Shown: piece by piece, positions 17,368-33,352 of the stretch
Layout of the letters: every line of letters starts with the position of its first letter
Numbering within the stretch: the first letter of the stretch is position 1
Source: Romeriopsis navalis LEGE 11480
GTDB lineage: Bacteria; Cyanobacteriota; Cyanobacteriia; Leptolyngbyales; Leptolyngbyaceae
Assembly (NCBI RefSeq): GCF_015207035.1
Contig: NZ_JADEXQ010000068.1
Location: 1 to 33,698, forward strand
Length of the DNA: 33,698 bases
Direction of reading: 5' to 3'
Position numbers and translations under genes: made by a program
The notes under the pieces: model-generated
Told to the model about the DNA's origin: nothing
The model's database searches: none
The model's input: the letters and a program-made list of their open reading frames with translations, nothing else

Positions 17368-19443
17368 CTATTCAAAATGGGGATAAACTTGCTCCTCAAA
17401 TAGCTGCTGGACTTTCTGACCTTGATGACCGACTAAAGATTGATAATCTGACCTCACATCAATTTTATAGTCTTGCGCTGTGCGCTCTAAGGTCGGCAAC
17501 CAAGTTGAATGTAACGTAAAGCCGAAGTTTAAAGCTGCATGGCCTAACTTACATATGGGACCTTGGGATAAACACTGTCCATCAAAAATCCAAATTTGCG
17601 ACTGCTCTCCCACAAATACAGTGCAGATAATATAGCCGTCTTGGTCCAACTCGGCAGCTTGACTACGACTCGCTCTTGGCACAAATTGGGGTGAATTAAC
17701 TAAAGCACCATACTCCGCATCGCTCGATAGCTGATATTTATCCTCAATTGACTGCGTTTCCGTATTCAGCCGAAACAGTGCGGCAGGCTTCCCTTGTCCT
17801 TGTGCCGCCCAGTCTAGCAGCGTATCAGTTGGCACCGTCCGGTATTTATAATTCTTCAGCAAATCATAGCTAAACTTCGTCAATAGTTCAGGCCAACAGC
17901 CAAAGGAAGTCCAATAAATATGTTTCACCTGACCAACAGGCTGACCAAGATTTGGATAATTCGCATAGGTATAAAACTCCACCCCCCATGTTAAATCAAT
18001 ATCTGAAATAATCTTGGCGGCGACGATCGAACCAGTTTTCGGATTAACTTCATACCGTCCCAAACGACTCACATCCATGACTTCCGTCTGCATTCCGGCT
18101 AATCGCCCCGGAACGGATTCATGGTTAATCTCCGCATTCACATCAAATTCTCTAATCCAAGCGGCGGCATCATCTGCACAAATGTGACCGAGGTGCAGCG
18201 TAATCATATCTTCCGTATCTTCGTAATCCACGGCAAAATGCAACACTTCCATCGGCAAATTTAAGGGCTGCACCGTCACCGTAACTTCTTGGTCGCTTTG
18301 GGTCGTCAGCTGCCCCTGCTGGAGATCTTCACGGCGGACAATATAAATTTTTGAATCTGGATTGGCTGGACTTGATAGCAATTGGCGGAACAAGCCTTCT
18401 AGCTTCGGTACATGGGGCAACGGATTATTAAACACCTGCGCTAAACCAATACTGAATGAGGTATCAACTAAAATGACATATCGCTGCGTTAGGCCAATTT
18501 GATGCAGGCTTTGCCTGATTTTAACCGGCGTACCATCAGGCAATACTAAGCGCCATCGTTCCAGCTCACCACTGCCATCCCACCGCATTAAATAAGTGAA
18601 ATTGGCAATATTGAGATTCGTAATTTTCTCCAGCTGCTGCACAACAGAAAGCAATAACTTGGTTGAAAAAATTGCCAGATTACCGAATGTGAGTTTAAGT
18701 ATCCATTCAACTTTGAATAACCGCGCGATCGCTTCTAGCAACTTCAGGATTTCACCTGGAAACTTCTCAGCTGCTTCCACCCAAGGAATTGCACTCATAA
18801 AGCTACTCATCGATCGGCCATAATTCACCGTCAACAATTCGCCAGTCGCCCCATCATAGACTGGATGCGCCGTACTCAAAACCGGCTGAAACGGCGATAA
18901 AAAAGTCGTTTCCGGTCGCCATTCTTGATTACTTCCGATCGGCGTCATAACTTCTAATGACTTAGGGTTAATCTCATAGTGCCGACCGGCATCAAAGGTC
19001 ACAAGGAGCCGTGAAGTATCATCACCTTGTCGCTGCATCGGTACAAATGCCGTGTTTAATTGATTCCGCATCCCTAAGCCAAAAGAGAAACGGGACACAC
19101 CGTGATTTTTAAATGCTAGCGATCGAAACTGCTCGATCTTCTGAGTCGCTTCATCTGCATAGAAATCCGGCGTTTTCATGATGCTAGAACTAATCTTGGG
19201 TGCACGCCCCTCAAAGTCCAACCGAAACACCATGCCATCACCATTAAAAATCGGATCACCTTTGGCATAGGGTAGTCCACCCGACTCCACGGAACCCACA
19301 GGCCCAATAAAGAATAGATGGCCCTGCAAATCATCCGGTAGCTGACCCTCAAGTATATCCAGTGGCTGATTGCTTAATTCAATCCGACTAGCAGACATAA
19401 CCGCCGGTGGTAACTTCTGTGCGCAAGTTTTTTGGGAAGACAT
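17368..19443 (-). CDS. Carotenoid oxygenase (RPE65/CCD family), paralogue 1
   Basis: 691 residues from an ATG. The family's seven-blade propeller pattern is present, including GHLFFIGPVGS, NGDGMVFRLDF and RWRLVLPDG. The four Fe(II)-binding histidines can be placed: H193 (STAHPVYD), H314 (LHQIGLTQRYV), H402 (EVLHFAVDYED) and H645 (FTLHSTWLP). The enzyme should cleave a double bond in a carotenoid, apocarotenoid or stilbene-like substrate with O2; the substrate cannot be read from sequence. It is about 200 residues longer than typical cyanobacterial apocarotenoid oxygenases. Part of the excess is a helix-rich insert at about 212-285, where family members have their membrane-entry helices. It lies 334 bp downstream of paralogue 2 on the same strand, but a terminator sits between them. 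Confidence 0.92.
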   Translation of the reverse strand: MSSQKTCAQKLPPAVMSASRIELSNQPLDILEGQLPDDLQGHLFFIGPVGSVESGGLPYAKGDPIFNGDGMVFRLDFEGRAPKISSSIMKTPDFYADEATQKIEQFRSLAFKNHGVSRFSFGLGMRNQLNTAFVPMQRQGDDTSRLLVTFDAGRHYEINPKSLEVMTPIGSNQEWRPETTFLSPFQPVLSTAHPVYDGATGELLTVNYGRSMSSFMSAIPWVEAAEKFPGEILKLLEAIARLFKVEWILKLTFGNLAIFSTKLLLSVVQQLEKITNLNIANFTYLMRWDGSGELERWRLVLPDGTPVKIRQSLHQIGLTQRYVILVDTSFSIGLAQVFNNPLPHVPKLEGLFRQLLSSPANPDSKIYIVRREDLQQGQLTTQSDQEVTVTVQPLNLPMEVLHFAVDYEDTEDMITLHLGHICADDAAAWIREFDVNAEINHESVPGRLAGMQTEVMDVSRLGRYEVNPKTGSIVAAKIISDIDLTWGVEFYTYANYPNLGQPVGQVKHIYWTSFGCWPELLTKFSYDLLKNYKYRTVPTDTLLDWAAQGQGKPAALFRLNTETQSIEDKYQLSSDAEYGALVNSPQFVPRASRSQAAELDQDGYIICTVFVGEQSQIWIFDGQCLSQGPICKLGHAALNFGFTLHSTWLPTLERTAQDYKIDVRSDYQSLVGHQGQKVQQLFEEQVYPHFE

Positions 19444-19777: not shown

Positions 19778-21994
19778 CTATTGATTAAAGGTTTGGTAAA
19801 TTTGCTCAAATAGTGACCGCATCTCTTTGGCAATTCGCCGATCGTAAGGAAAGATCGACCAATCACGCAGCTTAATCATCTTCGAGACGACTGGCTCAAA
19901 GTCCTTCCGAATATCGTAATCAATCCCCTCCGGCGAGACGATTTCCGGCAGCCAAGTCGTATGAATCGTAAAGCCAATATCAATTGAATCACTACACAGC
20001 CGGTAAACCGGTCCCTGACTCAAATTTTCAGCATCAAAGATCCAAATCTCACTATTGGGTGAGCCATCCGCTTGATCAGATAGCACCACACAAGTCAGAT
20101 AGCCTTCGGTTGAGCCTTCAGTACCAGCTTTCGGGATAAATTGTGGCGAGTTCGCAAAATGACCCGCTGGAAATTGGTAAACATCCGGGGTCGTCAGCTG
20201 TAACGCCGCTGACACATCAGTTCTTAATTTATCAATCTTGACGCGACATAAGGTCGTCGGCTGACCGGCTTTATTTGCCTCAATTGCATCGGTCAGATCA
20301 ACGGTACGATACTTATAATCAGCATATTGCTGTGCAACATACTCAGAAGATAAATCTTCCCATCCGCCAAAAAACAACCAATACATATTGTCCAGCCGAT
20401 CCGGCTGCTGCAAGGTCATATCACGGTAAGCATAGACCGGATCACCCCAACAATAGTCCTGCTGGATTAAGTAGGATTTGACGGGTTTCTCTGCCCCAGG
20501 ATTCAGAATGTAACTGCCAATCCAATCCCGATCCATTCCATTCGAGAGCATACCGGATAACTCACGCATTGATCGTGTATCATTAGCATCTCCCGAAACA
20601 GACGTATCAAATCGCCGAATTGTCTCAGCGGCGTCGGTAGCGCAACTATGAACCGTATGCAAGACGATTCCATCACTGTCATCATAATCCACGACATAGT
20701 GCGCAATTTCGCGGGGAATTGTCAGCTGCTGCGCCGTGACTTTTGGCTGGCCCTCAACGAGATCTTTACGCTTAATGATATAGACCGGCGTATCAGTTAA
20801 TTGGGGGATATCCGTTAGGTTACGGAATAGCCGCTCCGCATCTTCAACAATTTCGCCCCGTTCATAGGGCATTAGTTCTTCGAGGGAAATCTTGAACGCC
20901 GTATCGAGTAGTACGATGTGGTGCTTGGTTGCCCACATCTGATGCAGCGTCTGGTGGATTTTAATATCATGACCATTCTCTAAGACAACCCGCCAGCGAT
21001 CGAGCGCTTCACCATCCCGCCACCGAATCAAATCCACAAAATCATCGTGAACTAAATCCTGAACGATCTGGCGCATAAACCCTAAAACTTTCTCTAAGAT
21101 GTGGAAATGACGGTGACTAAACCGAATCACACTTTCCAGCATTTCGCTCAGGCGATGCGACAACTGATGCATCAGTTGCCCCAACCAATTCGGCTTTTCA
21201 TCCTGCTGATCCGGTTTTTGAATGATCTGATTCAGGATTGGGAATTTGCTAAAGATCTGTTTGGCTGTTGGTAGAAACGTCGAAATTGATTTGCCTAAGT
21301 TAACTGTAAACAGTTCCTTAGTCTCAAAATCAAAGCTCGGATGGCCAGCACTCATCATGAGCTTGAATGGCAAATTCGGGAATAACGGATTAACGCCTTT
21401 CCATTCTTGGTTAAAGCCAATCGGCTGTAAGATTTTCAGCGTGACGGGGTCGATTTCGTAGGGACGCCCCATATCAACGGATAGCAACAAGCGATAGGGA
21501 TTATCATCGGCAAATCGAAACGGTGTCAATGTAACGCTTAGTTGAGTTGCAACACCCAGATTGAGACAACCGCGTGTAATTCCATAATTTTGAAAATCGA
21601 GATTTTTATATTCCGGATTATCGTGGGTTAAGCGATCGGCTAAACAACTCACAGATTCCGCAATTTTTGTTTTTAGCGTTGCCTTACCCTGCTCAAAACT
21701 GACTCGATAAACTTTTCCGTCACCATTATAGAGTGGCGTTAATCCGTCCGCTGCGGGTAATATGCTATGAGGTAAATTGGGCGAATGGGCTGAATCGAGC
21801 GTACCGGCAGGCCCTACCACAAAAAGATGTCCAACTAAATCCGGACTCAGTTCGGTTATTTCATCGGTGAGACCGGCTTTGATCGTTAACGGCAAACATT
21901 CATGCTCTTGTCGCCGAACTGAAAGGATCGATCGTGGAAACTGCGACTTCTTAGAAACCGGGTCAACCAGACGTGGAGAAACAGCTTGAGTCAT
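19778..21994 (-). CDS. Carotenoid oxygenase (RPE65/CCD family), paralogue 2
   Basis: 738 residues from an ATG. It is clearly homologous to its neighbour (shared GHLFVVGPAG, YNGDGKVYRV, IGFNQEWKG and RWRDGE..DRWRVVLENG). Putative iron ligands are H218 (SAGHPSFD), H351 (LHQMWATKHH), H432 (EIAHYVVDYDD) and H678 (FTIHTTWLPE). Its helix-rich insert (about 236-320) is longer than in paralogue 1 and rich in His and hydrophobic residues (SHRHFHILEKVLGFMRQIV), which suggests a membrane-contacting substrate tunnel. Identity between the two copies looks moderate, so the duplication is probably old and the substrates may differ. It lies downstream of a membrane-anchored protein gene on the same strand (206-bp gap) and ends in a strong hairpin. 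Confidence 0.92.
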   Translation of the reverse strand: MTQAVSPRLVDPVSKKSQFPRSILSVRRQEHECLPLTIKAGLTDEITELSPDLVGHLFVVGPAGTLDSAHSPNLPHSILPAADGLTPLYNGDGKVYRVSFEQGKATLKTKIAESVSCLADRLTHDNPEYKNLDFQNYGITRGCLNLGVATQLSVTLTPFRFADDNPYRLLLSVDMGRPYEIDPVTLKILQPIGFNQEWKGVNPLFPNLPFKLMMSAGHPSFDFETKELFTVNLGKSISTFLPTAKQIFSKFPILNQIIQKPDQQDEKPNWLGQLMHQLSHRLSEMLESVIRFSHRHFHILEKVLGFMRQIVQDLVHDDFVDLIRWRDGEALDRWRVVLENGHDIKIHQTLHQMWATKHHIVLLDTAFKISLEELMPYERGEIVEDAERLFRNLTDIPQLTDTPVYIIKRKDLVEGQPKVTAQQLTIPREIAHYVVDYDDSDGIVLHTVHSCATDAAETIRRFDTSVSGDANDTRSMRELSGMLSNGMDRDWIGSYILNPGAEKPVKSYLIQQDYCWGDPVYAYRDMTLQQPDRLDNMYWLFFGGWEDLSSEYVAQQYADYKYRTVDLTDAIEANKAGQPTTLCRVKIDKLRTDVSAALQLTTPDVYQFPAGHFANSPQFIPKAGTEGSTEGYLTCVVLSDQADGSPNSEIWIFDAENLSQGPVYRLCSDSIDIGFTIHTTWLPEIVSPEGIDYDIRKDFEPVVSKMIKLRDWSIFPYDRRIAKEMRSLFEQIYQTFNQ

Positions 21995-23712: not shown

Positions 23713-23742
23713 CACAGATCCAAATCAACTAATCCAACGTAT
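23713..23742 (+). promoter_or_regulatory. Predicted ECF sigma promoter 1 (cupin/ECF unit)
   Basis: CACAGATCCAA (23713-23723), 14 nt, CGTAT (23738-23742). The same 11-mer and 5-mer with the same spacing occur at 25916-25945 before the DUF4331 gene. GATCC to CGTAT is 16 nt, normal for ECF promoters, and a GATCC-type -35 recalls the R. sphaeroides SigE-ChrR regulon. Transcription would start near 23750, about 44 nt before the ATG. Confidence 0.7.
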
Positions 23743-23793
23743 GACTAGGAAAGACTGAAACTTTCCCCGGTCTAGTCAATTGGATAAGCCACT

Positions 23794-24387
23794 ATGACAA
23801 CATCGCCCCCTGACCCAACGCATCTACGGGATCTACTACCGGCTCAAGCCTTCCAAACCCTTAAAGGTGAAACACTCGAGCAGCTCAACCAGGAACTCTC
23901 ACGCTCTCCGACCCTTCGGGCCGAACTGGCCCAGCTCGAACAAGCCGTCGCTGCCCTTGCCTACAGTGCCCCCTTAGTCCCAGTACCACCCGAACTACGC
24001 AATGCACTTCTAGAACAATTTCTCCCACCAGGAGATGTTTCTCTTGCCCTCTCCGACTTTTGGCAACAGCTCATGCAAGAATCCCACCCCCTCCCTTGGC
24101 AACCCTACCCTGGCGTCCCAGGAATTGAGTTGATTTTGATTAATGCGGATTATACCCAGCGACGGGTGCAATGCTTGATCCGAGCTGAGGGCGCGATCGA
24201 TTTTCCCCGACACCGTCATGCCGGACAAGAAGAAATGATTATCCTCGATGGTGATGTGGTGATCGAAACACAGGTTTATGGCCGCGGTGATCGGGTACTC
24301 GCCGCACCCAATTCCGAACATGCTTTAAGTACTATCAATGGCTGCTTAGTCTTCATGGACACATCTTTGGATAACGAAATTTTGTAG
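23794..24387 (+). CDS. ChrR-like cupin anti-sigma factor, paralogue 1
   Basis: 197 residues. The N-terminal half (about 8-80) is helical, like an anti-sigma domain (EQLNQELSRSPTLRAELAQLEQAV). The C-terminal half is a cupin with metal ligands H140, H142, E146 or E147, and H176 (motif FPRHRHAGQEE... SEHAL). ChrR proteins bind and silence an ECF sigma factor through the N-domain and release it when the cupin senses singlet oxygen or organic peroxides. This protein lacks the zinc ligands (HxxxCxxC) of the classic ChrR anti-sigma domain. C127 and C184 are its only cysteines. It is the first gene of the block, 154 bp before the sigma gene, with the predicted ECF promoter in front, consistent with autoregulation. 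It shares its C-terminal pattern (GCLVF...D..IL) with paralogue 2. Confidence 0.85.
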   Translation: MTTSPPDPTHLRDLLPAQAFQTLKGETLEQLNQELSRSPTLRAELAQLEQAVAALAYSAPLVPVPPELRNALLEQFLPPGDVSLALSDFWQQLMQESHPLPWQPYPGVPGIELILINADYTQRRVQCLIRAEGAIDFPRHRHAGQEEMIILDGDVVIETQVYGRGDRVLAAPNSEHALSTINGCLVFMDTSLDNEIL

Positions 24388-24541
24388 TTGACAACTTTGG
24401 CGTTTTTGGAACTCCGAGAACCTTGCCCCCCTAAACATTTACCAGCAATTGTTTGCAATTCGCTACATTTAGAGCTGCTAGTCTCGACTTTATCGCCGCT
24501 CATTCTTATCATTAAGTTCACCTGCTCTATCTACTGGAAGC

Positions 24542-25135
24542 ATGATTCCTGCATCCACTACACCCGACAATCGCTGTGATGAGATCCACTTAATGAAGCG
24601 GATTGCACAGCAGGATCAGTCTGCACTATCGCAGCTGTATGATCGGTATGCCCGTGTAATCTATTCCGTCGCCCACAAGAGCCTCGGCTCCGTTGAAGAA
24701 TGCGAGGAAGTGGTCCTCGATGTCTTTGCCCAGGTTTGGCGGACTGCCAGTCGCTATGATCCAGCCCGCTCACGGGTTGATACCTGGCTCTTTATGATTG
24801 CGCGCAGCCGGGTGCTCGATCGCCTTCGCGGCGTCCAACGCCGTGGCAAAGTTACAGAGGCCGTTATGGCACCTGACTTTAGCCACACACAAGCCCCCCC
24901 TAGCCCGAGCGAACATGCAGAAATTGCTGAACGACGCACCCAAGTGCTGAACGCCCTCCAACAGCTGCCCCCGGAGCAACAGCAAGTTTTAGAAATGAGC
25001 TATTATCAGGGACTGACCCAACGGGAAATCGCCGCTCAAACGGGTATGGCATTAGGAACGGTCAAGACTCGCATTCGTCTTGGATTAGAGAAACTTCGAT
25101 CCGCATTACATGCAGAGTCATGGGACTCGGTTTAG
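24542..25135 (+). CDS. ECF-type RNA polymerase sigma factor
   Basis: 197 residues. Region 2 spans about 18-90 (SALSQLYDRYARVIYSVAHKSL... EEVVLDVFAQVWR... DTWLFMIARSRVLDRLR), with the DVFAQVW motif that binds core polymerase. Region 4 spans about 130-190 (ALQQLPPEQQQVLEMSYYQGLTQREIAAQTGMALGTVKTRIRLGLEKLR), an HTH that reads the -35 element. A Pro-rich linker lies between them. No C-terminal extension is present. It is flanked on both sides by ChrR-like cupin genes and is most likely bound by one or both. The ATG is at 24542 with a weak GGAAG just upstream; no ECF-type element is seen in the 154 bp before it, so it is probably co-transcribed with paralogue 1. The gap to the second cupin gene is 25 nt. 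Confidence 0.95.
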   Translation: MIPASTTPDNRCDEIHLMKRIAQQDQSALSQLYDRYARVIYSVAHKSLGSVEECEEVVLDVFAQVWRTASRYDPARSRVDTWLFMIARSRVLDRLRGVQRRGKVTEAVMAPDFSHTQAPPSPSEHAEIAERRTQVLNALQQLPPEQQQVLEMSYYQGLTQREIAAQTGMALGTVKTRIRLGLEKLRSALHAESWDSV

Positions 25136-25160
25136 AATAGGGGTAAGTAGTAGAACACAC

Positions 25161-25796
25161 ATGGATAAATCAACCCAACAAGAACTCATTACCCGCTACG
25201 CACTGAATCGTGACGAACTCAACGACGCAGAAGATACTGCTGCATGGGCAGAATTTGCGGCCGACTTGGCTGATTCGCCTGAGCTCCAAGCAGAGCTAGC
25301 GGCATTCCAAACAGCGGCTCAGTCCATCGCCTATAGTGTAGAGCCAGCCACAATGTCCGCTGATTTGCACGATCGCTTGATGGCCAAAATTAGCCAATCG
25401 CGTCAGATAGAGGTAGTAGGCAATGTATCTGCGTCTTTGACCCAATTATTAGATATACCGCTCACTCAACTGCAGCAAGTTGCAGATAGTTTAGAAAATT
25501 GGGAGGCATTTCCCGCACCCGCGATCGGGGAGATGGCCATTTGGCAGTTAGATGAAGCGACCAATCAAGTTGCCTTCTTTGTCCGATCGGCGGTCAGCGG
25601 ACCATTTCCCAACCACTATCATGCAGCGGGGGAAACAGTATTAGTCGTCGATGGTGACTTTGGGGGCGATGAGCACACCTATCGATCCGGTGATATCGTC
25701 TATGCCGCAGCCGAAACATCACATCAGCCATATACAAAAGCTGGCTGCTTGGTCTTTTGTATTTCGTCGATGGACGACAAGATTCTCGAACCATAA
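25161..25796 (+). CDS. ChrR-like cupin anti-sigma factor, paralogue 2
   Basis: 211 residues from the ATG at 25161; the frame is open further upstream, but that part overlaps the sigma gene and is not conserved-looking. The N-terminal helical half (about 5-80: DKSTQQELITRYALNRDELND... LQAELAAFQTAAQSIAYSV) resembles an anti-sigma domain. The cupin half has ligands H152, H154, E158 and H188 (PNHYHAAGETVLVVDG... TSHQP). The HxxxCxxC zinc motif is absent; its only cysteines are C196 and C200 near the end. It is translated 25 nt after the sigma factor, the usual sigma/anti-sigma arrangement, so it is the more likely direct partner. It ends in a very strong terminator. Sequence similarity to paralogue 1 is modest but spans both halves and the end motif. 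Confidence 0.85.
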   Translation: MDKSTQQELITRYALNRDELNDAEDTAAWAEFAADLADSPELQAELAAFQTAAQSIAYSVEPATMSADLHDRLMAKISQSRQIEVVGNVSASLTQLLDIPLTQLQQVADSLENWEAFPAPAIGEMAIWQLDEATNQVAFFVRSAVSGPFPNHYHAAGETVLVVDGDFGGDEHTYRSGDIVYAAAETSHQPYTKAGCLVFCISSMDDKILEP

Positions 25797-25833
25797 TTGC
25801 GACCACTGATTGGCACAATTAAATTGACTTTGC

Positions 25834-25874
25834 AATACCGAAGTTCCTTCCATTCAGGAACTTCGGTATTTTCT
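25834..25874 (+). terminator. Intrinsic terminator of the sigma/cupin unit
   Basis: A perfect 15-bp stem, AATACCGAAGTTCCT (25834-25848) with AGGAACTTCGGTATT (25856-25870), with a 7-nt loop, running into TTTTCTTGG. It lies 38 nt beyond the paralogue 2 stop and separates this unit from the DUF4331 promoter. Confidence 0.92.
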
Positions 25875-25915
25875 TGGAAATATTCTCGGCAAAAATTTCG
25901 AAAAATCTGAGTTTT

Positions 25916-25945
25916 CACAGATCCAACTTCGACTCACCACCGTAT
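25916..25945 (+). promoter_or_regulatory. Predicted ECF sigma promoter 2 (DUF4331 unit)
   Basis: CACAGATCCAA (25916-25926), 14 nt, CGTAT (25941-25945), identical in both boxes and spacing to the element at 23713-23742. Inside the spacer only CCA just before CGTAT and one T are shared. The predicted transcription start is near 25953, leaving a leader of about 96 nt to the ATG at 26049. Confidence 0.7.
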
Positions 25946-26048
25946 ACCTCTTCAAATACGGTTGAACAGTAGCGCTACAAATCATTCCAGTATTTAACTT
26001 TCAGGCTGAATGCTATTTCCAAGATCAATCTAAAAAGGAACTCGATTC

Positions 26049-27308
26049 ATGTTGACTAAACTCACTCGTCGGATGGCTCAGACTTTGAATTTTCGGAGAT
26101 TACCAATTAAGTCACTGTTAGTTCTAACATTGCTATTTGCTGGAACTGGTACGGTATTAACTGCCACAAATTTTGTGAATGCCTCAGACCATGATGATGG
26201 CGAAGTCGATACAAAAGGCCGCAACCTCAACCTGACCGACCTTTACGTATTCCGCGAGAAAGACCAAAATCCCCAGGCATCAGCGGATGATCTAGTCTTT
26301 GTCATGAATACCAACCCGCGATCGGTCGCTCGGCAGCAGTATTTCTTTAGCACCCGTGCCCGTTATCAGTTCCATGTAACACGGGTAAATAATAAAGATG
26401 CAATGGCAACGGGCCGATCCCATATGATTATCCGGATGAAATTTGGTAAACCGGATAAAAATCAATCCCAACCCGTGACGGTGACGGTGCTGGGCAATGG
26501 CAAACCACGCTCTTTTAGAGCTCAAACCACACCGCTGAATCAGCCAGCCCAAAGCTATCAGGGACGCGTCGGCCAGCACCATATTGCCATGTTCGCCGGG
26601 TTACGGGAAGACCCCTTCTTCTTCGATGTTGAGCAATTTTTCCGCGTCCGCGCCGGTGCACGCAAGACTGGCCCAGCCGTCGGTTTTCGCGATCCGAGCA
26701 AAGCACTTGATTTTGCCAAAGGTTATAACGTGAATACCGTCGCTTTGCGGGTGCCGATCAAACTCCTACAAGCTGGCACTGACGCCAAAGTGTTTGATGT
26801 GTGGCAAACGATCTCACTACCTGGTCGGGGTGGACGGTATCGCCAGGTCGAGCGTTTAGGACGTCCAGGCATTAACGAAGGACTGATTGTCCAAAATAAC
26901 CTCCTGAATACCTTGAATAAAGTGAGTCCTAGCTTTGAGGCAGCGGCCCTAGCGGGTAAACAGCCCCAAGCCAAACTCGCAGCCCCGGTAATTGCCGATG
27001 CTTCCCGCACGCTCAAAGCACTAGGGAATAACGACCAACGGACCCAAGCCCTTCTGCAAGCCTTCTTACCAGATGTAATGCGGATTGACACAACCGGTAA
27101 GAGTGGTTATGGTGCGGCGTTGAATGCCTTAGGTAGCCCAATCCGCGGTCGCTTACTAAAGGATGATGTCATTGATACAACGCTGAGCGTTCTAACTAAC
27201 GGTGCAGTTCCATCCGATAACGTTTCTTATGAAGGCACCCCTGGTAATACGGCCCAAGGACATCAGCCCCTAGAGCGTCGCTTCCCGTATCTGGCAAAAC
27301 CGAACTAG
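26049..27308 (+). CDS. Secreted DUF4331 family protein
   Basis: 419 residues from an ATG with AAGGAA 9 nt upstream. The N-terminus is a signal peptide: basic residues (LTRRM... FRRLPIK), a hydrophobic core (22-40), and a probable cut after VNA at 45. The mature start NASDHDDGEVDTKGRNLNLTDLYVF corresponds to the family's usual opening (SSHREAP... DTYVF), with an acidic SDHDD in place of SHREAP, a possible metal-binding patch. The rest follows the DUF4331 beta-rich pattern, including FVMNTNP, REDPFFFDVEQFF, VALRVPI, FDVWQTIS and RLGRPGINEGL. The family's function is unknown. It is the first gene after a predicted ECF promoter and precedes the TPR and HupE/UreJ genes, so it is probably the main envelope output of the sigma factor. 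Confidence 0.9.
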   Translation: MLTKLTRRMAQTLNFRRLPIKSLLVLTLLFAGTGTVLTATNFVNASDHDDGEVDTKGRNLNLTDLYVFREKDQNPQASADDLVFVMNTNPRSVARQQYFFSTRARYQFHVTRVNNKDAMATGRSHMIIRMKFGKPDKNQSQPVTVTVLGNGKPRSFRAQTTPLNQPAQSYQGRVGQHHIAMFAGLREDPFFFDVEQFFRVRAGARKTGPAVGFRDPSKALDFAKGYNVNTVALRVPIKLLQAGTDAKVFDVWQTISLPGRGGRYRQVERLGRPGINEGLIVQNNLLNTLNKVSPSFEAAALAGKQPQAKLAAPVIADASRTLKALGNNDQRTQALLQAFLPDVMRIDTTGKSGYGAALNALGSPIRGRLLKDDVIDTTLSVLTNGAVPSDNVSYEGTPGNTAQGHQPLERRFPYLAKPN

Positions 27309-27314
27309 CAGCGG

Positions 27315-27352
27315 AGTTTGGCCTAGCTATCTCAATCGAGCTAGGCCAAACT
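27315..27352 (+). terminator. Strong hairpin between the DUF4331 and TPR genes (terminator or attenuator)
   Basis: A perfect 14-bp stem, AGTTTGGCCTAGCT (27315-27328) with AGCTAGGCCAAACT (27339-27352), with a 10-nt loop and a short, broken T-tract (TACTTGTTTT). It lies 6 nt after the DUF4331 stop. Partial read-through would make the downstream genes less abundant than DUF4331. Confidence 0.7.
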
Positions 27353-27424
27353 TACTTGTTTTGGTTGAGATTTAGGCTTTTACTCGATACTGCAGCTACA
27401 GGTTCAGACTTAACCTGCAAAATC

Positions 27425-28807
27425 ATGAAAACTCATTCGATGCCCCGATTCCACAAACCGGCTTGGTTGATCGTACCGGCAGTGATCACGATCGTCATGC
27501 TCACCATCATGGCTCGATCCTTGAATTCACCCACAACTCAAGCGAATGCCTTTAGCTACCCATTTCGCCTCGATCTGCCAGGAAATCGCGATCGGCTAAA
27601 GCAGATTCAAGCGGAATTGAGCTTTTACAAGGATCGTGTACAACAAGCCCCCACAAGTGGTTTGAATTTATCTGCCTTAGCTGGAACATATTGGAAAATG
27701 GGTAAGGCAACCGGCGAAGTCAGTTGGTATTTATTGGCCGAAAAAACCGCACAACGCTCACTCTCCAGTTTGCCATTTGATAATGCTGGAGCGAAATTGA
27801 CCCTCGCTAAAATCGCCCAGGCACAGCACAACTTCAAGCAAACCAATAAAATCACGCAACAAATACTCACAGAACAACCGGGCAATGAAGAAGCACAGGC
27901 CATTTTAGTCACGAGCCATTTGGCGACTGGTAATTTGATCGAAGCCGATCGATTAGTCACACAGTTGGTTAAATCGACACCAACCCTGCCAACTTTGACG
28001 TTGCAAGCCTTAGTCCAAGATGCACGGGGTGAAGCCTCTACCAGCCAGACCTTTGAGGCGGCGATCGCGGCTGAAGAACCGGGAGAAATTGGCAGCTCCG
28101 CTTTTGCCCGAGTCATGTATGGCAGACATTATGCGCGGCAGGGCAAACTCCAAAAAGCCGAAAGTCTGTACCAAGCCGCCCTGGAGATCTTGCCGAACTA
28201 TCCACTCGCCTTAGTGCAATTAGCTTCACTCAAAATTCGTCAAGGCAAGTACGAAGCAGCGGAGCAAGCCTACAATCAGATTGTGGCCTATTCACGCCAG
28301 GAAGCAACCGTATTTGATCATGTGATTCTGCGGGGTAAGGCGCGGATTAAACAGCTCCAAGGGCAAGCGTTTACCCCACTACTCCAAAAAGCCGAGACGC
28401 TGTTACGGCAGGAAACAAATACGGGCCATGATGCCACAAGTCTAGAGCAAGGTAGCTTTGGCCATCGGCGAGAATTAGCGTTGTTATTGCTCGATCGCAA
28501 TCAGCCTCAGACCAATGCTGAAGCCTTGAAATTGATGCAGGCGGAAGTCAAGGTCAGACAAGACGCTCAAACCTTAAGTGCATTAGCACAGGCTCAATTC
28601 CGAGCCGATCGTCACCAAGCAGCACACCTCAGCATTCAGAAAGCGATCGCGACGGGAATTGCTGACCCAGCGCTATTTATGCAAGCGGCTCAGATTGCTC
28701 GCAGGCTTGACAAACCACAACAGGCCCAACGCTACGCCAATCGTGCGACCCAAATTGATCCTAGCTTTGACCAGCAAGCCCAACGCGCGATCGGGCTAGA
28801 AATTTAG
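27425..28807 (+). CDS. Membrane-anchored TPR repeat protein
   Basis: 460 residues from the ATG at 27425; the frame is open upstream to a TTG at 27356, but that overlaps the hairpin region and lacks a ribosome-binding site, so the internal ATG is chosen. One N-terminal membrane segment (PAWLIVPAVITIVMLTIMA, about 13-31) anchors the protein. The rest is a series of helical TPR-type repeats, for example GRHYARQGKLQKAESLYQAA and ASLKIRQGKYEAAEQAYNQI. TPRs act as protein-binding scaffolds, and here they would sit on the outer face of the membrane, where the DUF4331 protein is exported. Genes for DUF4331, TPR and HupE-like proteins in this order suggest a functional complex. No catalytic motif is seen. 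Confidence 0.85.
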   Translation: MKTHSMPRFHKPAWLIVPAVITIVMLTIMARSLNSPTTQANAFSYPFRLDLPGNRDRLKQIQAELSFYKDRVQQAPTSGLNLSALAGTYWKMGKATGEVSWYLLAEKTAQRSLSSLPFDNAGAKLTLAKIAQAQHNFKQTNKITQQILTEQPGNEEAQAILVTSHLATGNLIEADRLVTQLVKSTPTLPTLTLQALVQDARGEASTSQTFEAAIAAEEPGEIGSSAFARVMYGRHYARQGKLQKAESLYQAALEILPNYPLALVQLASLKIRQGKYEAAEQAYNQIVAYSRQEATVFDHVILRGKARIKQLQGQAFTPLLQKAETLLRQETNTGHDATSLEQGSFGHRRELALLLLDRNQPQTNAEALKLMQAEVKVRQDAQTLSALAQAQFRADRHQAAHLSIQKAIATGIADPALFMQAAQIARRLDKPQQAQRYANRATQIDPSFDQQAQRAIGLEI

Positions 28808-28843
28808 TTAGTACATCCTCTTGAAGCAACGGCAGCTTTAGCC

Positions 28844-29923
28844 ATGAAACACCTCAAATATCTCATCACCGCCTGTTGTCTGACACTTTTGCTCATCGTT
28901 TATTCTGGTGCTGGCGCGGACGCCCATTGGGCTGATTCGGCGGTCGGGGAGATCACAATCACTCAGAAATCCGCTGAATTTGTTTTGACATTACCCTCAG
29001 CATTATTAGATGTTGCGGATGACAATCGAGATGGGCAAATCACTGCCGATGAAATTCAGCAAAACCAAGCTGTTCTGACAAATTTACTCAACGATCGAGT
29101 ACAGCTTACTGACCAGACAGAATTAGGACAACTTGAGCAAATAGCCCTCAGGCAATCAGCCCCAGCTAATCCAACCCATACGACGATCGCGTTAACTTAC
29201 CGCTGGAAAACACCGATTGAGGCACTGCAAGCAACCTATAAATTATTCTTACCTGATGCGCCCAATGCTCGCTGTGTTGTGACGATAAGCCATCAGGGAA
29301 ATACCCAAAGTGTAATTTTCAGTCCGCTCAGTCCAACTGCAAGCCTCATCAAATCACCAATATTGCAGCAGGCAAAGAGCTTTATGCTGTTAGGGATTGA
29401 GCATATTTTGACTGGCTACGATCACATTCTCTTCATCGTCAGTTTGCTACTAATGGCTGGGAGCTTATCGCAAATTTCCGTGCTGATTATGGCGTTTACA
29501 ATTGGCCATTCAATAACGCTGGCTTTAGCTGTATTAAATGTTGTTTCCCTGCCATCACAGTTAGTGGAAAGTCTCATTGCTTTGTCGATCGTTTATGTCG
29601 CGGTTGAGGCAATGAGACGTAAATCAATGCGCTACCGTTGGCTGACGATTTTTGGGCTTGGCATGATTCATGGGCTAGGGTTTGCAGGGATTTTGCAGGA
29701 TTTAGCGATTATAGGACAACGTCTTGGTATCACACTGTTCAGTTTCAACTTGGGCTTAGAAGTTGGGCAGATATTGATTATTATTATCGGTTTAACGGTA
29801 ATTTCAGCTTGCCAGCGAATCCGATGTAATCAAGGATGGCGACTTAATTTATTGCGAACGATTGCGGCTGGCATTGCGATTACGGGGAGCACCTGGTTCA
29901 TGCAACGCGCATTTCTGGGTTAG
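28844..29923 (+). CDS. HupE/UreJ-type membrane protein with an extracytoplasmic EF-hand loop
   Basis: 359 residues. The signal peptide (1-27) has a mature start near AHWADSAVGEI. A beta-rich extracytoplasmic domain (28-170) contains a canonical EF-hand loop at 59-70 (DDNRDGQITADE, with D59, N61, D63 and E70 as ligands), which would bind Ca2+. The C-terminal half (about 175-355) has roughly six to seven membrane helices with HupE/UreJ signature motifs GIEHILTGYDHILF (184 on), GHSITLALA and HGLGFAG (from about 276). HupE/UreJ proteins are linked to nickel or cobalt uptake for hydrogenase and urease, but this variant with a large outer domain (HupE/UreJ_2-like) has no defined substrate, and no hydrogenase or urease gene is in the window. 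It lies 36 nt after the TPR gene, so it is probably co-transcribed. Confidence 0.88.
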   Translation: MKHLKYLITACCLTLLLIVYSGAGADAHWADSAVGEITITQKSAEFVLTLPSALLDVADDNRDGQITADEIQQNQAVLTNLLNDRVQLTDQTELGQLEQIALRQSAPANPTHTTIALTYRWKTPIEALQATYKLFLPDAPNARCVVTISHQGNTQSVIFSPLSPTASLIKSPILQQAKSFMLLGIEHILTGYDHILFIVSLLLMAGSLSQISVLIMAFTIGHSITLALAVLNVVSLPSQLVESLIALSIVYVAVEAMRRKSMRYRWLTIFGLGMIHGLGFAGILQDLAIIGQRLGITLFSFNLGLEVGQILIIIIGLTVISACQRIRCNQGWRLNLLRTIAAGIAITGSTWFMQRAFLG

Positions 29924-30067: not shown

Positions 30068-33000
30068 ATGCGACTTAATTTAAGCATTGCTACGCTGCTA
30101 GGAATTCTATTGTTAGGTGGAATGGGATTGGCACAATCGACCTTTGCTGTGTCCATTGTGCAGTTATCACCAACCCGCCGAACTGAACTCCAACAGCTAT
30201 ATCACCAGGGCCAAAAAGCATACCGCGATCGCCAATATCAATCGGCTGAAGCAACTTGGAAGCAAGGATTGCAAATAACGCGTGAAGCACAGGATAAAAA
30301 AGGATCAGCGGTTTTCTTAAATAGTTTGGCAAATCTCTATAAACGTCGTGGTCAAGTAAAGCTGGCGATCGAGTATTACACCAGAACGCTAAAAGTTGTG
30401 ACTCAACTGCCAAACCGCCGCTATGAGGCAGAGACCTTAATGAATCTGGCAGGGCTATACGATCAAAAAAATGCCCATCAAACAGCAATTGACTATTACC
30501 AAAGTGCTTTGCCAATTCATCGATCGCGCCAGGATCAAACCAGCGAACTAAACGCTTTGATTGGCATCGGAGCAAATCATTATTTGCTGAAGCAATATCG
30601 TGGCGCTATTCACTATGGAAAATTAGCCCTGCCCATCTATCGACAACAGCAAGATGCCCTAGGTGAAGCGAGAACCCTGGCAATTATCGGTTCAGCCTAT
30701 CGCCAACTGCGACAATATGGTCAGTCAATTCACTATCTGGAAACATCAATCCCGCTATATCAACGCGTCCAGAATCAACTCGGTGAAGCCCGTGCAATGT
30801 ATCAGCTTGGCCAAGTCCATCTTCAGCGTCGTGAGTCCTACCAGGCGATTAAGCGATTTGAGCAAGCCGCCAAACGATATCACGCACTGAGTAATCCGCG
30901 TCATCACGCCAAAACCCTAACGCAGATTGCCGATATCTATCACCAGCTAGAGCGCCATCAAGTCGCAATCCGCTACCAAAGGCAGGCGCTATTGCTATAT
31001 CAGGGAATTAATGACTCCGCCGGGATGACGATCGTGCTCAATGATTTAGGACTGAGCTATCAAGCACATGCACAGTATGCAAAAGCGATCACCTATTATC
31101 AGCAATCACGAAAGTTAGCAAAAACAACCAGTGATCAAAATTCCGAAGCAAATGCCTTAATGAACATTGGGAATTCCGCTTATTTCCTGGCTCGCTATCA
31201 ACAGGCAACCGATTCGCATCAGCAGGCACTCAAGCTATTTCGCCAAGTTGGCAATCAACGCGGCACAGCTAATGCCTTAATGAATCTTGGCAATACAGCC
31301 TACTTTCTAGCCCAGAAGCCAAAGGCAATCAAATATTATCAGCAAGCACTCCCCATTTTTCGGACGCTTCAAGATCAAACCGGGGAAGCAAATTTATTAA
31401 ATAATCTCAGCTTGCTGGATCAAGCTGAGAACGCCAAAAAACATGCTCAGCAAGCATTGAAGCTATATCGGACAACTCAAAATCAAGCCGGTGAAGCCAC
31501 AGCGCTGATGAACCTAGGGATTATCGATCGCCGACAAGGTCGCTATGCCCCGGCGATTGATCATTACCAACAAGCACTCAGCATTGCGCGTCGGATTAAC
31601 GATCGGCATCGTGAAGCCCAAGTTTTGAATAATCTCGGTGTAGCTTATCGGAATTTGGGCCAACCCGAATTGGCGATCGTCACCTATCAAAATGCTTTAA
31701 GTCTTTTTCAATCGATTAACGTTCGACGTGGGGAAGGTGGGCTTCTGCATAATATTGGATTACTGCTAGAGCAACAGCAGCAGCCCGCTTTAGCGATTAT
31801 TTTCTATAAGCAGTCGGTGAATGTCCGGGAAGACATTCGAGCCGATATTCCAGCCCTCGATCACGATACCCAGACATCCTATATCCAGTCAGTCGCCGAT
31901 ACCTACCGGAGGTTAGCAAATTTATTGATTGAGCAGGGACGGATTGGAGAAGCGCAGCAAGTATTAGAGCGACTCAAGATTCAGGAATTAAATGATTTTA
32001 CACAAACGGTACGATCAGCGGAAACCATTAAGCCCGTTGAGCTTAATCAGCAGGAAATTACGATTCAAAATAAATATAACAAGTTGATTAGTTTTGGCAA
32101 TCGCTTCTACACCTGTGAGCAACAGCGGTGTGCTGACTTTCAACAGCTCAAAACTGACTACCAGTCCCTCTCAAAAGAATTTTATGCATTTGTCGAAACC
32201 GCCAAGCAGCAGCTCAAGGCCGATCGCCTTCAGCAAGTGAATCAGGCAACTGCAGATTTTCGGCAAAGTGCACAGCGGATTGTCGAAGATCATCCCAATT
32301 CCATTTTGATATATCCCTTAGTGCTGCCTAACCAAACGCGAATTCTGTGGTCGACCAAGGGTGGCGTATTTAGCAAAGCCGCAACTTGCGCGATCGGGCA
32401 AAAAGCATTGAGTCAGAAAATCAGCCAATTTAGAATTTTTCTGAGTCGCGTCACAGATGAAGCCCGCCTCAAAGCAATCGGCAAAGAACTTTATGATTGT
32501 TTGATCAAACCCTTAGAACCCGAACTCACAGCGAGCCAAATTCAGCATTTAATTTTTGTGCCAGATCGCATGACCAACTATATGCCGATGGCAGCTGTAT
32601 ATGACGGCAATCAATATTTGATTGAACGATTTGCCACATCGAATATTCTGTCAGCGAGCAAAACCGATACGCGTGATCAGCTCCCACGCCAGTCTCAGTC
32701 CATCAAAATTTTGGGCCTCGGCTTATCGGAACAGCGGCCAGGCTACGATGCTTTGCCGTACGTCGAAAAAGAACTCGATCAGATTGTCAAAACTAACGCC
32801 GAGGATCAGCAGGGTATCTTTGGCGGCTTACAGTTTCTAAATCAGGCATTTGATCGGCGAGCGCTAGAAGATAATTTGCGTGATCGCCAGATTTTACACA
32901 TTGCCACTCACGGTGAATTTAACCCGACGAACCCACGATCATCATTCCTGCTACTTGGCAATGGTCAACCCTATGCAATTCCCGATATTCAGACAATTCG

Positions 33001-33352
33001 GGAGTTGCGGAATGTCCATTTAGTTGTGCTATCGGCCTGTGATACAGGTCTGGGTGGTCGTGATAATTTGGGCTTAGAAGTTAGCGGCATGAGTTCGTTC
33101 TTCCTGGGTGATGCCAATAAGGCAAAAGCGGTTTTAGCCTCCCTATGGAAGGTCAATGATGAGAGCACCAGCATCCTCATGCAGCAGTTTTATCAAGGTT
33201 TAGCACAAGGGCAGCGTAAAACTGCAGCACTACGCCAAGCACAATTATTTATGCTGAAGCAAACACCCAATAATCCAGTGGATGCGCCGGAGCCGAATCT
33301 CACGCATCCCTACTATTGGGCCCCATTTATTTTGATGGGAAATGGCCTGTAG
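30068..33352 (+). CDS. Exported TPR-CHAT protein (caspase-like peptidase fold)
   Basis: 1094 residues from an ATG. The N-terminus is a signal peptide (LSIATLLGILLLGGMGLAQSTFA, about 4-27). About 13 TPR repeats with a 40-residue period (kinesin-light-chain type, e.g. NALMNLGNTAYFLAQKPKAI) fill residues 35-600; one repeat near 455 is short by about four residues. After a coiled-coil stretch (about 640-740), the C-terminal CHAT domain (about 790-1090) has the putative catalytic dyad H948 (IATHGEF) and C991 (LSACDTG), as in caspases and separase. It should be a Cys peptidase or a protein-interaction module on the outer side of the membrane. Such genes are common and multicopy in filamentous cyanobacteria, but targets are mostly unknown. 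It is separate from the HupE gene (144-bp gap). Confidence 0.93.
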   Translation: MRLNLSIATLLGILLLGGMGLAQSTFAVSIVQLSPTRRTELQQLYHQGQKAYRDRQYQSAEATWKQGLQITREAQDKKGSAVFLNSLANLYKRRGQVKLAIEYYTRTLKVVTQLPNRRYEAETLMNLAGLYDQKNAHQTAIDYYQSALPIHRSRQDQTSELNALIGIGANHYLLKQYRGAIHYGKLALPIYRQQQDALGEARTLAIIGSAYRQLRQYGQSIHYLETSIPLYQRVQNQLGEARAMYQLGQVHLQRRESYQAIKRFEQAAKRYHALSNPRHHAKTLTQIADIYHQLERHQVAIRYQRQALLLYQGINDSAGMTIVLNDLGLSYQAHAQYAKAITYYQQSRKLAKTTSDQNSEANALMNIGNSAYFLARYQQATDSHQQALKLFRQVGNQRGTANALMNLGNTAYFLAQKPKAIKYYQQALPIFRTLQDQTGEANLLNNLSLLDQAENAKKHAQQALKLYRTTQNQAGEATALMNLGIIDRRQGRYAPAIDHYQQALSIARRINDRHREAQVLNNLGVAYRNLGQPELAIVTYQNALSLFQSINVRRGEGGLLHNIGLLLEQQQQPALAIIFYKQSVNVREDIRADIPALDHDTQTSYIQSVADTYRRLANLLIEQGRIGEAQQVLERLKIQELNDFTQTVRSAETIKPVELNQQEITIQNKYNKLISFGNRFYTCEQQRCADFQQLKTDYQSLSKEFYAFVETAKQQLKADRLQQVNQATADFRQSAQRIVEDHPNSILIYPLVLPNQTRILWSTKGGVFSKAATCAIGQKALSQKISQFRIFLSRVTDEARLKAIGKELYDCLIKPLEPELTASQIQHLIFVPDRMTNYMPMAAVYDGNQYLIERFATSNILSASKTDTRDQLPRQSQSIKILGLGLSEQRPGYDALPYVEKELDQIVKTNAEDQQGIFGGLQFLNQAFDRRALEDNLRDRQILHIATHGEFNPTNPRSSFLLLGNGQPYAIPDIQTIRELRNVHLVVLSACDTGLGGRDNLGLEVSGMSSFFLGDANKAKAVLASLWKVNDESTSILMQQFYQGLAQGQRKTAALRQAQLFMLKQTPNNPVDAPEPNLTHPYYWAPFILMGNGL

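Follow-up and report, generated by a model that had tools for sequence, protein, structure and literature searches.

The window analyzed here is a 33,698-nucleotide stretch of the cyanobacterium Romeriopsis navalis LEGE 11480 (contig NZ_JADEXQ010000068.1), in which six consecutive plus-strand genes form two linked units. The first consists of an extracytoplasmic function (ECF) sigma factor and two cupins, and the second of a secreted DUF4331 protein, a membrane-anchored tetratricopeptide repeat (TPR) protein, and a permease of the HupE_UreJ_2 family that carries an anglerase-like ecto-domain. Sequence comparison gives good support both to the second unit as a conserved module and to its regulation by the sigma factor of the first. 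The system probably serves metal capture under ECF control (a probability of roughly 0.6), such that DUF4331 would bind a Cu- or Ni-like ion, the TPR protein would dock it, and the anglerase-permease would import the ion. All six genes, in the order proposed by an earlier note on this DNA, are confirmed by their open reading frames (ORFs) and Pfam matches:

23794-24387, plus strand: cupA, candidate anti-sigma factor (Pfam Cupin_7, 3e-14)
24542-25135, plus strand: ECF sigma factor, RpoE/ChrR-like (Sigma70_r2, 1.6e-16; r4_2, 9e-18)
25161-25796, plus strand: cupB, second candidate anti-sigma cupin (Cupin_7, 4e-10; 31% identity to cupA)
26049-27308, plus strand: DUF4331 secreted protein (PF14224, 1.8e-63)
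~27425-28807, plus strand: membrane-anchored TPR protein (TPR Pfam matches; hydrophobic N-terminal segment in the translation)
28844-29923, plus strand: anglerase-HupE_UreJ_2 permease (PF13795, 3.5e-42)

Conservation of the DUF4331-TPR-permease module

The DUF4331 protein was scanned against approximately 85,000 species genomes, and 80 loci were kept. A TPR gene of one family lies on the same strand directly 3' of DUF4331 in all 78 loci with enough downstream sequence, and the third gene encodes a HupE-like or NicO-like membrane protein in nearly all loci where the sequence extends far enough; in the window, the TPR and permease genes are separated by 36 bp. The module spans at least five phyla (Cyanobacteria, Deinococcota, Armatimonadota, Actinomycetota, and Pseudomonadota). 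Streptomyces plasmids encode DUF4331, TPR, and a "nickel transporter" in this order, sometimes together with a sortase, and the same gene order recurs in alpha-, beta-, and gamma-proteobacteria, including Lichenicola, Comamonadaceae, Pseudoalteromonas, and Marinobacter, where the middle gene, annotated as a hypothetical protein, is again a TPR protein (a weak match in Lichenicola). The 78 of 78 DUF4331-TPR pairs and the distribution across five phyla rule out chance adjacency, and this neighborhood survey, set as a refuting test, upholds the earlier proposal that DUF4331, TPR, and HupE belong together. The TPR protein, always encoded between DUF4331 and the permease, is a candidate docking scaffold.

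Directly downstream of the permease gene, on the same strand, lies a gene for a large TPR-CHAT protein (30068-33352), which lies near DUF4331 in only 4 of the 80 related loci and is therefore placed outside the module. On plasmids of Sulfitobacter and Paracoccus (loci L149 and L150), a DUF4331 gene without TPR or permease genes is found between an A24 prepilin peptidase gene and a type II secretion cluster.

An ECF sigma factor and its dedicated promoter motif

The closest solved structure to the sigma factor is RpoE of Rhodobacter sphaeroides (PDB 2q1z, 1e-29), with SigK behind it (1.7e-22). The two cupins are related to each other (blastp 3e-24) and match ChrR, cupA through an NCBIfam anti-sigma N-terminal model (6.6e-11) and the ChrR structure 3o14 (E 5.7e-11), and cupB through TIGR02451 (4.4e-15). 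The resemblance of the ECF-cupin pair to RpoE-ChrR that the earlier note had drawn is thus upheld, while its description of the cupins as ChrR-like stands for the cupin domain and the ChrR matches but not for the zinc ligands of the anti-sigma domain: the HxHxxxE cupin metal ligands are present in 46 of 46 cupins, both window cupins included, whereas none of the 46 has the zinc site (HxxxCxxC) that the anti-sigma domain of ChrR carries. The cupins are therefore likened to ChrR in their working and are not placed as ChrR members. With the RpoE-ChrR systems (ECF11; R. sphaeroides, Pseudomonas syringae PSPTO_1043, and Shewanella RpoE2) the window shares the closest solved sigma factor, the HxHxxxE cupin, and the promoter core and spacing, but it differs in its zinc-free anti-sigma domain, its two cupins, and a two-promoter regulon in place of phr/cfa-type core genes.

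The two promoters share the motif AGATCCA-N15-CGTAT:

23716-23742, plus strand: ECF promoter P1, AGATCCA-N15-CGTAT, 5' of cupA (one of two genomic matches)
25919-25945, plus strand: ECF promoter P2, 5' of DUF4331 (the other genomic match)

Positions 23716 and 25919 are the only places in the 6.47-Mb genome where the pattern CACAGATCCAA..CGTAT occurs, a count that refers to exact sites, as degenerate sites were not searched; the reversed control pattern has no match. The ECF11 core regulon (phr, cfa) is not found under the motif among these exact sites, both of which lie at the locus. The window promoter, read as AGATCC-N16-CGTAT, has the core and spacing of the RpoE/ChrR consensus and departs from it in its first base, A rather than T; this ECF11-type consensus reads TGATCC-N16-CGTA in P. 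syringae (PMC5507510) and TGATCC/CGTAAT in Shewanella (PMC4336711). Promoters of this class belong to singlet-oxygen and peroxide regulons (PMC5507510, PMC4336711, PMC6852236).

The same motif, AGATCCA-N15-CGTAT(ACC) with fixed spacing, precedes DUF4331 in the ECF-carrying cyanobacterial loci and is 108-fold enriched upstream of DUF4331 over the rest of the loci. It is present at DUF4331 in 35 of 41 loci with a nearby ECF gene versus 5 of 39 without one (Fisher p 5e-11, uncorrected for relatedness), and in all five genomes that have the motif without an adjacent ECF gene, an orthologue of the sigma factor is encoded elsewhere (200-290 bits). The loci that break this pattern are mostly explained by an over-extended ORF call (L057), a site before the first of the DUF4331 copies (L088), or a site further upstream (L120); L105 carries a partial ECF gene, and L121 and L131 are Armatimonadota with another ECF factor. 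Among 26 relatives, each genome holds one to five sites, mostly at DUF4331 or the ecf-cupin genes, and in several loci a second site 5' of a cupin gives the layout of negative feedback. Both the shared promoter elements that the earlier note described, found genome-wide only at cupA and DUF4331, and its proposal of sigma-factor control over the DUF4331 unit are supported by this dedicated two-site motif and by co-occurrence with ECF genes in related loci.

The regulatory pair differs between lineages. The modules of Armatimonadota and Pseudoalteromonas have as their neighbor a SigK-like ECF gene with an RskA_C anti-sigma factor, so the sensor is exchangeable and the module is not. SigK-RskA pairs rely on a membrane anti-sigma factor with an RskA_C domain, whereas the window encodes cytosolic cupins, in which Pfam detects no RskA_C domain. 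An apparent stop codon within Calothrix ECF genes was dismissed, since the TAA precedes the start codon and the genes are intact.

Two hairpins lie within the locus:

25834-25870, plus strand: intrinsic-terminator-like hairpin after cupB, closing the first unit (perfect 15-bp stem, then a T-rich tail)
27314-27353, plus strand: hairpin directly 3' of DUF4331 (15-bp stem)

The second is possibly a partial terminator or an mRNA stabilizer; folding below -15 kcal/mol in 60 nucleotides is found after DUF4331 in 38 of 78 relatives versus after TPR in 18 of 75. Generic sigma-70 and terminator scans of the window performed no better than on shuffled sequence.

Several neighbors of the regulatory elements were also recorded. 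Two adjacent minus-strand genes resembling RPE65-type carotenoid oxygenases (17368-19443 and 19778-21994) lie near this singlet-oxygen-type sigma system. In Microcoleus (L256:4943-7493 and L257:2309-4823), the ECF motif precedes a large secreted DUF4394 and RTX-repeat gene, likely a second sigma target, and at L244:8254-8974 a ferritin-like (Ferritin_2) gene begins ~85 bp 3' of an ECF motif, near ecf-cupin genes.

The anglerase-permease and the DUF4331 N-terminus

The permease is of the HupE_UreJ_2 type (PF13795) in one set of loci and of the NicO type (PF03824), with His-rich loops, in another. In both types, the signal peptide is followed immediately by one and the same extracytoplasmic domain (AHWADLAVAEI...), and the permease has therefore been swapped beneath a constant ecto-domain. 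Essentially all N-complete permeases of either type have A|H or S|H at the cleavage site predicted by the -3/-1 rule, so that the mature protein would begin with histidine; in the window, this predicted His1 is encoded at 28925-28927 and the HX5DH motif at 29402-29425. The invariant residues of the HupE type are H28, D59, H187-D193-H194, H222, and H276.

In an AlphaFold 2 (AF2) model (predicted local distance difference test, pLDDT, 85.5), the ecto-domain of the window permease matches the Cu-bound Ang-1 domain 9GCE (Foldseek E 1.8e-5; VIA Z 10.8 over 130 residues, root-mean-square deviation 3.4, 18% identity), a relationship found through fold comparison only, as the sequence profile of the permease has no match among PDB sequences. 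This structure belongs to the anglerases (Ang-1/Ang-2 with HupE/UreJ-2; Franco Cairo et al. 2025), which bind Cu2+ and Ni2+ with dissociation constants of 73.6 nM and 220 nM and are proposed to capture and import metal (PMC12537917). The window permease shares with them the predicted histidine right after the signal peptide, a beta-sandwich ecto-domain, a C-terminal PF13795 permease, and conserved histidines. The second metal ligand is Asn41 in Ang-1 and predicted to be Asp33 in Ang-2, and here the invariant D59 (mature residue 32) is the candidate. Unlike the anglerases as published, the present type shares a fixed, ECF-switched operon with the DUF4331 and TPR genes, its ecto-domain is also found on NicO, and it also occurs in Cyanobacteria, Deinococcota, and Armatimonadota; the main text of the anglerase paper names neither DUF4331, TPR, NicO, nor sigma factors (PMC12537917).

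The ecto-domain also has the fold of the zinc binders ZrgA of Vibrio cholerae and PA4063 of Pseudomonas aeruginosa (Z ~10, with the next, unrelated structures at 7.7), periplasmic metal binders that are linked to metal import but stand alone, share ~10-18% identity with the window ecto-domain, and occur without DUF4331. ZevAB of Haemophilus influenzae is grouped with these zinc-binding proteins. Pfam reports nothing for the ecto-domain besides a weak EF-hand or MAP match, and the EF-hand that the earlier note had read in the HupE protein scores 18.9 bits, below the cut-off of 25.9; a functional calcium site was set aside on this sub-threshold match. A metal role for HupE, in turn, is now the best-supported reading, given the match of the anglerase domain to 9GCE and the replacement by NicO. 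A second anglerase-HupE_UreJ_2 gene in the same genome stands alone, without DUF4331, 3' of a purB-like gene (C8, L264:3610-4836), and at L090:10791-11363 and L096:7792-8331 the anglerase domain occurs by itself, what follows of the permease being degenerate or missing, and may represent a soluble metal binder or decay.

The direction of transport admits an opposite reading, in which stress would free the ECF factor, DUF4331 would sequester excess Cu or Ni outside the cell, and the permease would export the metal. Such efflux or detoxification agrees with stress-type control by ChrR-like cupins, with the ferritin-like gene behind another motif copy in one genome, and with the His-rich loops of the NicO-type partners, loops that the exporter RcnA also carries. 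It is unlikely all the same, because HX5DH is a signature of HupE uptake, a role in capture and import is proposed for the closest solved relative (PMC12537917), and HupE of Rhizobium leguminosarum is a nickel importer (cited in PMC12537917). The export function suggested in the earlier note was not borne out, the known relatives pointing at least equally to metal capture or uptake. Far less credible is a supply of nickel to Ni-superoxide dismutase (Ni-SOD) within an oxidative-stress response, although a Ni/Co-type permease beside an oxidative-stress-type sigma factor would suit it: Sod_Ni is absent from the R. navalis genome, and of 62 cyanobacterial genomes with a Sod_Ni match only G215 and, weakly, G123 also have DUF4331, a distribution that rules this out as a general role.

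DUF4331 itself matches the PF14224 profile above its cut-off over the full length (215.7 bits, 1-421 of 421). Its predicted signal peptide ends in V-N-A|S-D-H, placing the start of the mature S-D-H at codons 26184-26192, and in ~124 secreted members, counted after four spurious regular-expression matches had been removed by eye, the residue preceding S-x-H is Ala (mostly) or Ser. Five apparently cytosolic members without a signal peptide (L140, L141, L142, L144, and L202) keep this start, beginning M-S-N-H, M-S-D-H, or M-S-H-H, and removal of Met would yield the same S-x-H N-terminus. The pattern is absent in only 2 of 137 sequences, both N-terminally cut fragments; this set was cut at the motif, and S and H are also invariant in the uncut alignment. 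A free NH2-x-x-His terminus is the amino-terminal Cu(II)- and Ni(II)-binding (ATCUN) motif, and the S-x-H N-terminus of DUF4331 is accordingly predicted to be an ATCUN-type Cu/Ni-binding pattern. The AF2 model of DUF4331 (pLDDT 86.8) has no known fold among its matches, the best being at Foldseek E 0.02 and VIA Z 6.4 (antibody domains), which is in the noise range; designed helical repeats (hmmsearch 3e-5) were rejected as a repeat artefact.

Protection of the envelope against photo-oxidation without any transport, with DUF4331 as a secreted structural or redox-active protein and TPR-HupE for its assembly or anchoring, would fit the singlet-oxygen and peroxide promoter class (PMC5507510, PMC4336711, PMC6852236), the sortase beside the Streptomyces copies, and the DUF4331 genes that have no permease neighbor. 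The invariant S-x-H and the presence of two metal-permease families in the third slot, joined to one metal-binding ecto-domain, make this explanation improbable.

A proposed path of metal capture and its significance

In the metal-capture model, a signal sensed through the cupins (by analogy singlet oxygen or organic peroxide, or else the metal itself) would free the sigma factor, which would then transcribe both cupA, as feedback, and the DUF4331-TPR-hupE unit. Secreted DUF4331 would bind a Cu2+/Ni2+-class ion outside the cell by its free S-x-H N-terminus and be docked by the membrane-anchored TPR protein, after which His1 of the anglerase domain would receive the ion and the HX5DH permease carry it across the membrane. 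The module, promoter, and motifs are read from the sequence directly; from them we infer the identity of the metal, the direction of import, the order of hand-over, and the inducing signal.

Several observations weigh against this model. NicO relatives are exporters as well as importers, no Ni/Co riboswitch or other riboswitch naming the metal is found at the gathering threshold in the window or in 40 related loci, and the R. navalis genome lacks Ni-SOD. In Sulfitobacter, Paracoccus, and Methylocystis, among others, DUF4331 occurs without a permease neighbor, and seven genomes with an orthologue of the ECF factor have no motif at DUF4331, so the link between switch and module can be lost. Cleavage giving His3 is also doubtful in L063 and L064, because Thr precedes S-x-H.

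Relatives of the individual components are known; what is new is their assembly into a regulated system, together with the proposed role of DUF4331. Neither the regulated three-gene system nor such a role, nor any mention of DUF4331, was found in a full-text literature search, which misses most subscription journals. DUF4331 is found in many phyla and is here given its first testable role. Its operon is fixed, its N-terminus carries an invariant metal-binding pattern, and it is linked to a permease domain with a solved copper-binding structure, so its function can be tested directly. The anglerases of 2025, described as single proteins, are here placed within a regulated system of several genes, and ECF11-type promoter specificity is preserved in cyanobacteria, where the two-promoter circuit forms a very small, clean sigma regulon. 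It is possible, and proposed tentatively, that DUF4331 represents a new class of secreted protein metallophores of ATCUN type, whose ion would be passed via the TPR dock to the anglerase-permease in a three-component system with an exchangeable permease (HupE_UreJ_2 or NicO) and an exchangeable ECF/anti-sigma pair (cupin or RskA). If true, this would represent a widespread bacterial metal-acquisition system.

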